DNA from: Acidobacteriota bacterium
GTDB taxonomy: Bacteria > Acidobacteriota > Vicinamibacteria > Vicinamibacterales > JAKQTR01
DNA length: 64,000 bases
Direction: 5' to 3'
NCBI GenBank assembly: GCA_026393675.1
Contig: JAPKZQ010000030.1
Location: 76,575 to 140,574 of the forward strand
This document shows positions 4,628 through 54,485 of this stretch, piece by piece. Below the pieces are notes generated by a model that worked only from the letters and a program-made list of their open reading frames with translations, had not been told where the DNA came from and ran no database searches. Positions within the stretch are counted from its first letter, which is position 1, and every line of letters starts with the position of its first letter. Both the position numbers and the translations under genes were made by a program.

Positions 4628-4663
4628 TCGGGATTCGGGATTCGGGATTCGGGATTCGGGGTT
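4628..4663. repeat. heptamer tandem repeat (GGATTCG)n
   Basis: About five near-perfect copies of the heptamer GGATTCG begin 6 bp after the symporter stop. A shorter relative (ATTCGGGATTCGGGGTTCGGG) occurs just after the rho stop near 13019. The unit length equals that of the ACTTCTT array on the other side of the same gene, though the units differ. Confidence 0.88.
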
Positions 4664-4709
4664 CGAGAGTCGGGTGGGCGGTGTGACGGGCGTTTTCCTG
4701 GGAGCGCCG

Positions 4710-4777
4710 GGCTCCCCTTCGAGTTCCCTCAGGGCTGGCAGCCCGGCCACGCTGGAGCGTGGCGATCCCGGGGAGCC
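4710..4777. repeat. Y-shaped palindromic element A
   Basis: Outer arms GGCTCCCC (4710-4717) and GGGGAGCC (4770-4777) enclose two hairpins: GGGCT..AGCCC (4732-4744) and CCACGC-TGGA-GCGTGG (4747-4762). The segment GCTGGAGC-NN-GGCGATCCC (4751-4769) is shared with the inverted repeat at 19894-20020. It is a REP/MITE-like element in the gap after the symporter, with no transposase nearby. Confidence 0.7.
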
Positions 4778-5237: not shown

Positions 5238-5324
5238 GCGAAAGTGGCGGAACTGGCAGACGCACTGGACTTAGGATCCAGTAGCCGAAAGGCTGTGGGG
5301 GTTCAAATCCCCCCTTTCGCACCA
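5238..5324 (+). tRNA. tRNA-Leu (anticodon UAG)
   Basis: An 87 nt class II tRNA. The 7 bp acceptor stem pairs GCGAAAG (5238-5244) with CTTTCGC (5314-5320), followed by discriminator A and an encoded CCA (5322-5324). The anticodon stem CTGGA/TCCAG flanks the loop CTTAGGA, giving anticodon TAG (5272-5274), which reads CUA/CUG. A long variable arm (GTAGCCGAAAGGCTGT) and a T-loop with GTTCAAATC are present. It sits 81 bp upstream of trigger factor and may share a transcript with it. Confidence 0.96.
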
Positions 5325-13016: not shown

Positions 13017-13092
13017 CAATTCGGGATTCGGGGTTCGGGCCTCGGAGGCGCGTGCCGTTCGACGGCGTGGCCTTTCATGGACGTACAAGAGA

Positions 13093-16979: not shown

Positions 16980-17945
16980 ATGAAGTATCGCGTCTTTGGG
17001 CGTCTCGGGTGGCAGGTCGCCGAAGTCGGCTTCGGCACCTGGGGCATGGGCGGATGGAGCGGATCCGACGACGACCAGTCGCGGACGGCGCTTCGACGCG
17101 GGCTGGAGTCTGGCTGCAACTTTCTCGACACGGCGCTCGCGTACGGCAACGGTCGCAGTGAACAGCTGATCCGGGACGTCCTGGCTGACTGGACCGGAGC
17201 CCGCCCGATCATCGCGACGAAGATCCCGCCGAAGAACGGACGCTGGCCGGCTCGCCCGTCCACTCCGCTCGACGCTGTTTTCCCGTCGGACTACATCCGC
17301 GAGGCCACCGAGCGCAGCCTGACGAATCTCGGCGTGAGCCAGATCGATCTCCAGCAGTTCCATGTGTGGACCGACGCCTGGGCCGCTGATGATCGATTCG
17401 TGCGCGCCGTCGCGGCATTGAAGGACGAGAAACTGGTCAAGGGTATTGGCATCAGCGTCAATCGCTGGGAGCCGACCAACGTCATCAAGGCTTTGCGGAC
17501 CGGAGTCGTGGACGCAGTGCAGGTGGTCTACAACATCTTTGATCAGGCTCCAGAGGACGAACTGTTTCCCGTCTGCCGGGAACTCGACGTCGCCATCATT
17601 GCCCGAGTGCCGTTTGATGAAGGCAGCCTGACCGGCACGATGACCGCGAACGATACCTGGCCCCAGGGCGACTGGCGCAATCTGTACTTCACGCCCGCCA
17701 ACCTCCGCGAGACGCTGGCGCGGGTCGACCGGGTGAAGGCTGATATCCCTGCCGGTCTGGATCTGCCTGAGGTCGCGCTGCGGTTCACGCTGCACGACCC
17801 GTCGGTCAGCACCGTCATCCCGGGCATGCGCACCGTGGCGCACGTCGATCGCAATCTCGCTGCCGGCGACGGCAGGCCGCTTCCCCCAGCCCTGCTCGCC
17901 TCGATGCGCAAGCACCGGTGGGATCGGACGACGGTGATCCCGTAG
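16980..17945 (+). CDS. aldo/keto reductase
   Basis: 321 aa (beta/alpha)8 NAD(P)H oxidoreductase. Motifs: FGTWGMGGW near the N-terminus, the catalytic Asp/Tyr region FLDTALAYGNG (about 49-59), catalytic Lys in ATKIPPKN, and the QFHVW motif where the family's conserved His is expected. The C-terminal FTLHDPSVSTVIPGMRT is the usual AKR cofactor-binding region. It is close to the YajO/general-stress AKR group; the substrate is not evident. It is transcribed away from the TonB-dependent receptor. Confidence 0.9.
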   Translation: MKYRVFGRLGWQVAEVGFGTWGMGGWSGSDDDQSRTALRRGLESGCNFLDTALAYGNGRSEQLIRDVLADWTGARPIIATKIPPKNGRWPARPSTPLDAVFPSDYIREATERSLTNLGVSQIDLQQFHVWTDAWAADDRFVRAVAALKDEKLVKGIGISVNRWEPTNVIKALRTGVVDAVQVVYNIFDQAPEDELFPVCRELDVAIIARVPFDEGSLTGTMTANDTWPQGDWRNLYFTPANLRETLARVDRVKADIPAGLDLPEVALRFTLHDPSVSTVIPGMRTVAHVDRNLAAGDGRPLPPALLASMRKHRWDRTTVIP

Positions 17946-17946
17946 G

Positions 17947-18015
17947 GGCGCGATTCATCCGCCTTCGCGTAGAGCTTCGGCGGACCGCCGTAGCCTTGGC
18001 GGAGGTGGTCGCGCC
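17947..18015. repeat. Y-shaped palindromic element B
   Basis: Outer arms GGCGCGA (17947-17953) and TCGCGCC (18009-18015) enclose two hairpins, CCGCC..GGCGG at 17959-17983 and CCGCC..GGCGG at about 17985-18003. It fills the gap between the aldo/keto reductase stop and the rpmE promoter. It has the same outer-stem-plus-two-hairpins plan as the elements at 4710 and 54428, although the sequence differs. Confidence 0.65.
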
Positions 18016-18049
18016 CGTGATCCCCTAGCCTTTTTCGCCGACCCGCTGC

Positions 18050-19893: not shown

Positions 19894-20020
19894 GGCCGGG
19901 CTGGAGCCCGGCGATCCCAGGCTTGAGGGCGCACTTGGGGCGACCACAATCCCAGGCTCGAGACAGATCGGACAAGTGAACAGCGTGACACCCCTGGGAT
20001 CGCCGGGCTCCAGCCCGGCC
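19894..20020. repeat. perfect 28 bp inverted repeat (element C)
   Basis: A 28 bp arm (19894-19921) and its exact reverse complement (19993-20020) flank a 71 bp spacer. Each arm also contains its own hairpin, GCCGGGCT-GG-AGCCCGGC. The CTGGAGC-NN-GGCGATCCC segment is shared with element A at 4751-4769. It lies between the MrfA stop and the MrfB start; a transcript across it could fold into one long stem or two hairpins. Confidence 0.85.
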
Positions 20021-54427: not shown

Positions 54428-54485
54428 CGTCACCCCGGCGGAAGCCGGGGTCCAGTCGTGGATTCCGGCGTTCGCCGGCATGACG
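54428..54485. repeat. Y-shaped palindromic element D
   Basis: Outer arms CGTCA/TGACG enclose hairpins CCCCGGC-GGAA-GCCGGGG and CCGGCG-TT-CGCCGG. It is similar in form to widespread REP-like intergenic repeats (...TCCAG...TGGA...). It lies between the membrane-protein gene and the APC permease stop. Confidence 0.75.

Follow-up and report, generated by a model that had tools for sequence, protein, structure and literature searches.

The family A repeats of this genome are very probably a population of REPs and inverted REP pairs (REPINs) that is served by a REP-associated tyrosine transposase (RAYT) and now serves a group II intron as its insertion site. We also lean, less firmly, towards a compound reading: that the intron comes from a class C lineage whose specialised targets are RAYT-type REP hairpins, the fourth kind of target to be known, and that it breaks up the foot required by the RAYT, which would make it a retroelement preying on the repeats of a domesticated transposase; and that the repeats form a third tagged class of REPs, with the foot C(T/C)GGGANC and a RAYT clade of their own in many phyla. 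The stretch of DNA analysed, called the window here, is 64,000 nucleotides long (G000:C30:76575-140574) and lies within a 3.25 Mb genome of 46 contigs.

Family A in the window and in the genome

An earlier note had described Y-shaped palindromes at 4710, 17947 and 54428 as one REP/BIME-like family, and had linked the first of them to an inverted repeat at 19894 by a shared core. All four sequences are present at these window positions, and the core GCTGGAGC-NN-GGCGATCCC is exact at 4751-4769 and 19900-19918 on the plus strand and at 19996-20014 on the minus strand; in its whole form, GCTGGAGCNNGGCGATCCC, it has these three exact copies (4751, 19900 and, on the minus strand, 19996), and no further site occurs in the window at up to 3 mismatches. 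The single family, however, dissolves into at least three, namely A (4710 and 19894), B (17947) and C (54428). The element at 4710 is real, but its extent of 4710-4777 has to be redrawn, as the family A inverted REP pair (a REPIN on the plus strand, its core matched genome-wide) runs from 4697 (CCTGGGAGCGCC) to near 4772. Its left REP, on the minus strand, carries a 23-nt loop insert at 4716-4738, its right REP is of the GT flavour (core 4751-4769), and the outer stem seen at 4710 is partly a product of the insert. An outer stem with two hairpins was said to be the common architecture; a branched Y is the minimum-free-energy fold of this element only, with an outer stem enclosing three inner hairpins, whereas the elements at 17947 and 54428 each fold as one long hairpin and take the Y form as an alternative fold only. 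The repeat at 19894 comprises a family A REP of the CC flavour (GCCGGGCTGGAGCCCGGCGATCCCAGG; 19895-19921, plus strand, core 19900-19918) and an inverted partner of the same flavour (19993-20019, minus strand), with 28-nt arms (19894-19921 and 19993-20020) that are 100% complementary and have 71 nt between them. The 23-nt insert, CCTTCGAGTTCCCTCAGGGCTGG, was found at up to 3 edits in eight places within stretches around REPs (window 4716-4738 and seven others), where several pairs of family A carry it in the loop of the left REP, which makes it another example of a loop insert besides the possible one in family B considered below. A tRNA-Leu gene lies at window positions 5238-5324, downstream of the 4697 element, and tandem heptamer-like tracts (GGGATTCGGGATTCGGG) lie beside REPs at window positions 4633-4680 and 13019-13052 and in several other family A flanks.

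The genome-wide core search that the earlier note had proposed placed family A far above the control, with 110 sites (60+50) at up to 1 mismatch versus 0 (0+0) for the reversed core, and 199 (109+90) at up to 3 mismatches versus 33 (14+19), so that about 33 of the 199 are expected from the control; 75 cores are exact. Because these counts far exceed the control, the core common to these elements identifies a true family of repeats. Each copy is a 7-bp hairpin, GCC[GG/AC]GC-TGGA-GC[CC/GT]GGC, of which the two flavours are GCCGGGC-TGGA-GCCCGGC (CC) and GCCACGC-TGGA-GCGTGGC (GT); in most copies GATCCC(A/G)GG comes next. On the opposite strand, 5'-CC(T/C)GGGATC precedes the hairpin, with the conserved foot 5'-CCTGGGATC. 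The stem is extended by five perfect pairs, unforced by the search pattern, at 104 of the 107 sites with at most 1 mismatch and full flanks (nine of them intron junctions), and for the variable pairs 54 of these 107 sites have GG:CC and 50 have AC:GT. The stem changes are compensatory, but the two flavours may descend from only one or two ancestral changes, so the covariation does not equate to many independent events.

The stem counts, like those of pairing and gene context, come only from stretches that are biased to REP neighbourhoods and include 74 of the 75 exact cores. Within 120 nt there are 40 pairs of neighbouring sites, 36 of them inverted (28 head-to-head and 8 tail-to-tail, versus 4 tandem), and head-to-head partners are spaced at exactly 39 nt in 19 of the 28 cases and at 27 nt in five. 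Isolated sites number 41 of 115, so single REPs are abundant as well as pairs. In a comparison of 100 genomes that included its own, family A was found at 110 sites in its own genome, at 15 in the same-genus genome G001 and at a background of 0-5 sites in the others. No RAYT1 match was found in G001, and REPs can therefore outlive, or lack, a RAYT of their own, a point against the RAYT-served reading.

A group II intron in family A hairpins

Many family A matches lie about 100 bases from contig ends, and those ends have a common sequence, which is the 5' terminal part of a group II intron. The 3' end of this intron contains a domain V (RF00029, 52.4 bits against a gathering score of 40), and its ends read GTGCG...CCCCTAT; GUGYG is a boundary motif of group II introns. 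We found 11 5' ends and seven 3' ends in the genome, each 100% identical to the query and each at a contig end; the two kinds of junction cannot be paired, and the 18 junctions thus represent at least 11 copies. All junctions found lie outside the window, which makes the intron invisible to a reading of the window only. Neither its interior nor its protein was found in the assembly, where a GIIM search gave one other intron, on contig C37. Hits to PYLIS_3 and to miRNA and plastid families in Rfam fell short of the gathering scores and were disregarded.

The junctions are uniform. All 11 5' junctions read family A hairpin-GATCC^GTGCGCC, with an identical hairpin family, 5-nt spacer and base (nine hairpins are of the GT flavour, one is CC and one a hybrid), and all seven 3' junctions read CCCCTAT^C(A/G)GG, the latter part being the REP tail. 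The insertion point is therefore GATCC^C(A/G)GG, or CCTG^GGATC on the foot strand, and the foot is split. The REP cluster next to RAYT1 itself terminates in one of the 3' junctions, and an inverted partner REP lies upstream at 6 of the 11 5' junctions. Group IIC introns insert just past DNA stem-loops, and the same is seen at 11 of 11 5' junctions; the stem-loop in each case is a family A REP and apparently neither an attC site nor a terminator. Intact copies in the stretches around REPs number 43 GT and 54 CC versus 9:1 among occupied ones, the hybrid junction being left out (Fisher p 0.007), from which we conclude that the intron over-uses REPs of the GT flavour.

As a general rule, the strand richer in G serves as the template for lagging-strand synthesis. 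The intron-sense strand is G-rich (positive GC skew) at 15 of the 18 junctions (8 of 11 5' and 7 of 7 3'; p 0.23 for the 5' junctions alone), a skew that is suggestive only, because several values are near zero and two junctions of the same copy do not count as independent. Class C introns favour the lagging-strand template (PMC8919778), and a like bias is suggested for the REP intron. The orientation of isolated REPs relative to local GC skew gave no signal (12 versus 8).

The multi-copy intron is probably a class C group II intron, an assignment that rests on a related intron in genome G141, since its own interior and protein are absent from the assembly. Over 109 of the initial 132 nt the two introns are 84% alike; a full copy in G141 is about 1.87 kb long and encodes a 439-aa RT/maturase (TIGR04416, 386 bits), whose best PDB matches are 6ar1 (the GsI-IIC RT, 220 bits) and 7uim (212 bits), which we take to be the E. 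rectale IIC complex. Across 162 genomes of the order, with five candidates per genome scored, related 5' ends were found in G064 and G141 (84-90% identical over 73-132 nt), and short matches, 25-43 nt long, turned up in another three genomes (E 2.5e-4 to 6.9e-4). The intron's own genome contributed 5 of its 11 copies to the candidates scored in this comparison, and with no more than five candidates taken from each genome, absence elsewhere, G001 included, is weak evidence. A second group II intron of the genome, L189 (C37:2360-5560), has a domain V, an RF02003 match and an ORF for a 440-aa RT/maturase, and no REP was seen by eye in its 5' flank; we rejected it as the source of the multi-copy intron, as its ends are dissimilar save for domain V and it has an Rfam D1-D4 class of its own. 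A junction string of REP and intron had 34 matches in viral contigs, which we take to be chance because none had an intron-like continuation or a REP-like hairpin.

How far do these junctions reflect a specialised intron? According to excerpts of a 2015 review, group II introns are known from three types of target, namely homing sites, terminators and attC sites; class C introns have no endonuclease domain, and introns that lack it use replication primers (PMC4424553). The targets of class C introns are described as a DNA stem-loop, a spacer, IBS1 and IBS3 (PMC10190682). The REP intron resembles the group IIC introns found at terminators and attC sites, as far as these excerpts describe them, in its domain V and in its insertion a few nt past a DNA stem-loop, but differs in its target, a RAYT-type REP hairpin with the spacer GATCC and no T tract. 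Mobile elements that target REPs are known, among them insertion sequences and a group II intron of P. putida; a 2006 table associates 2 of the 9 copies of that intron with REPs, versus 11 of 11 5' junctions, at one base, for the REP intron (PMC1525189). Apart from PMC1525189, none of the literature matches listed was a paper on introns homing to REPs.

It is possible, though we think it rather unlikely, that the targeting of REPs is opportunistic, with a class C intron of the terminator type having met the commonest hairpins of the genome and its target site having drifted afterwards. A recognition that consists of a stem-loop and short IBS1 and IBS3 sequences (PMC10190682) would permit this, and the related introns fit it as well, since both G141 copies and one of the two G064 copies lie just after hairpins other than family A REPs. 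No group II intron at the Rfam gathering score was found near RAYT relatives in the 58 loci scanned of 80, which also favours opportunism. What such a history explains less readily is that every one of the 11 5' junctions has the same hairpin family, spacer and base, and that the GT flavour is over-used relative to intact copies. We lean towards a lineage specialised on RAYT-type REP hairpins.

The RAYT genes and the nature of the repeats

Two further explanations concern the repeats themselves. The palindromes could be intrinsic terminators or stabilisers of mRNA 3' ends, used by the class C intron as terminators are used elsewhere, a reading that we consider very improbable. Family A does consist of hairpins in gaps: among the 105 of 115 sites (up to 2 mismatches) that were mapped onto gene context, after exclusion of stretches that were short or overlapped and of sites at the end of a stretch, 90 lie outside and 15 inside CDS calls made by a purpose-made simple codon-usage gene caller, in stretches whose bases are 86% coding and 14% non-coding. 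Class C introns, moreover, are known after terminators (PMC4424553). The gaps, however, are tandem at 41 sites, divergent at 17 and convergent at 12 (20 of the 90 outside sites lie at a stretch edge where the neighbouring gene is missing), contexts that roughly track the share of intergenic bases and not gene ends, and TTTT occurs within about 12 nt of 1 of 107 copies only. Termination needs neither a conserved loop and foot sequence nor a flanking RAYT. We discarded the terminator reading on the T tracts and the gap types; the copies are thus neither few nor explained as terminators only, the two outcomes that the earlier note had named as counting against its REP/BIME-like family.

A search of the whole genome for a REP-associated HUH transposase, also proposed there, returned two Y1_Tnp matches, both above the cut-offs of the NCBIfam REP-associated tyrosine transposase and Pfam Y1_Tnp models. 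No transposase had been noted nearby; this holds for Y1_Tnp within the window, which ends at 140,574, but RAYT1 lies 15 kb past that end (C30:155,476-156,177; NCBIfam REP_Tyr_transpos score 100 bits, cut-off 80). The gene is intact and has family A REPs on both sides, within REP-containing 63-nt inverted arms that are 964 nt apart and 86% complementary. Its protein has the HUH motif H138-V-H140 and, aligned with the TnpA_REP motif, Y-I-x-x-N-P with Y204, presumably the catalytic tyrosine. The AlphaFold model (mean pLDDT 82; residues 1-43 mostly below 50) has as its best PDB match 4er8, a complex of E. coli TnpA_REP with a REP hairpin (E 9.8e-8, TM 0.50/0.69). Copy number, extragenic location, inverted pairs and a cognate RAYT flanked by the repeats thus all agree with family A being REPs and REPINs, and the REP/BIME-like nature claimed from the window is borne out. 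That family A is instead a MITE mobilised by a transposase of the DDE type, or a relic of IS ends, is barely credible, for although the repeats are short, multi-copy, inverted and mobile-looking, the gene that they enclose is an HUH/Tyr RAYT, and single REPs are abundant besides the pairs (41 of 115 isolated).

Like the REPs, BIMEs and REPINs of E. coli, Pseudomonas and Stenotrophomonas with their TnpA_REP or RAYT, family A consists of short extragenic inverted palindromes with more than one stem flavour and a RAYT flanked by its own repeats. It differs from them in the foot, C(T/C)GGGANC in family A and the RAYT1 clade versus the GT(A/G)G reported in excerpts on those species, and by this feature is not a GTAG-tagged REP, its foot being CCTGGGATC. 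The evidence for a clade-wide foot comes from the best 80 of 202 loci of RAYT1 relatives, which by record title belong to Acidobacteria, Lentisphaerae, Verrucomicrobia/Opitutia, Chloroflexi, Planctomycetota, Cyanobacteria, Gamma-, Beta- and Alphaproteobacteria and others, many of them MAGs. The nearest named relative suggests, as a guess, that the host belongs to Acidobacteriota. At least two similar hairpins lie within 600 nt of the gene at 55 of these 80 loci, on both sides at 42, versus 7 of 123 control blocks more than 1.5 kb from the gene. GGGA occurs within 8 nt 5' of the hairpin at 183 of 318 near hairpins versus 19 of 183 far ones, while GTAG is found at 3 and GTGG at 18 of the same 318; by locus, 58 of the 78 with a near hairpin are GGGA-footed and 20 are without GGGA. 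A single register holds in 177 of 190 GGGA occurrences, and in these 177 the unselected positions are fixed as well (C at -8 in 154, C/T at -7 in 176, C at -1 in 160), so the foot is 5'-C(T/C)GGGANC.

This foot can be set against the REP feet reported in excerpts of the literature, which are GTAG or GTGG, CGTC, CnGA, terminal inverted repeats with GGGGWSAS, or untagged (PMC3733652, PMC6006769, PMC8266576, PMC2817692). Two tags, GT(A/G)G and CGTC, are described in PMC3733652, and CnGA feet belong to the rare class 3 RAYT proteins (PMC6006769), whose motif is not the Y-I-x-x-N-P of RAYT1. Some Pseudomonas REPs read GTGGGAGC (PMC2817692), so the C(T/C)GGGANC class may be a relative of the GTGG REPs with its first bases changed, a link that is plausible from the sequences. 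The closest RAYT among the 100 relatives' genomes (in G022, 50% identical to RAYT1) has GGTCC and no GGGA foot. Motifs could be recognised at 18 RAYT loci of the order (RAYT2 and that of G022 included, RAYT1 excluded; 12 more gave no motif): GGGA stands beside hairpins in three, two of which have AT-rich hairpins, and GT(A/G)G likewise in three; GGGA beside hairpins is therefore not unique to the RAYT1 clade. The residue after the conserved W (Q95 in E. coli, a foot contact) was rejected as a marker of the new foot, being H in 12, M in 12, Q in 11 and another residue in 5 of 40 aligned proteins.

The family B element (17942-18016, plus strand) has the foot GTAGGGGCGCGA, two inner hairpins and an outer stem closed by TCGCGCCC, and had 33 BLAST matches genome-wide, itself included and some short or partial, with 40 of 65 candidates scored. 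The 20 aligned loci have the two inner hairpins in common and mainly two outer stems, with variants of each, GTAGGGGCGCGA...TCGCGCCC and CTGGAGGCCGGGTCT...AGACCCGGC, of which the second is the repeat beside RAYT2. That gene (C39:46.4 kb; L002/L163) has three 41-nt tandem units of the GAAGACCCGGCCTCCAG type downstream, and its associated repeat set is smaller (13 sites at up to 3 mismatches, control 0). Family B looks like one inner module borne by two palindromes, a mosaic (window 17942-18016; L303-L321) that may come from insertion into hairpin loops. The family C element (54428-54485, plus strand) is an inverted REP pair of the CGTC type, CGTCACCCCGGCGGAAGCCGGGGTCCAG...GGATTCCGGCGTTCGCCGGCATGACG, with 19 sites at up to 3 mismatches (control 0), several of which have common flanks and some of which are without the second half. 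Its CGTC start, short stem, CCA-like tail and head-to-head dimer show no evident difference from the CGTC-tagged REPs described in excerpts of PMC3733652, and, as in other species there, none of the 19 sites lies beside either RAYT gene.

A proposed mechanism: a retroelement on the repeats of a transposase

Taken as a RAYT-served REP population that an intron has come to use, family A suggests the following sequence of events. RAYT1, by analogy with E. coli TnpA_REP, would bind the folded single-stranded hairpin and its foot, and would cut and rejoin REPs or REP pairs, which would be copied or moved in trans. The class C ribonucleoprotein would recognise the stem-loop of a REP extruded on the lagging-strand template, with EBS1 and EBS3 of the intron pairing with ATCC and C beside it, and the intron would reverse-splice into the site and then be copied from a replication primer. 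Since the insertion splits the foot, an occupied REP should cease to be a substrate of the RAYT, and REPs taken by the intron would be lost to it.

Two kinds of mobile DNA, both acting on folded single strands, would thus meet on the same hairpin. The foot C(T/C)GGGANC is also a search string, which could assign many unplaced palindromic repeats to one RAYT clade. If the intron is indeed specialised on REPs, the copy number of the REPs should set that of the intron, and the REPs that it occupies should leave the reach of the RAYT.
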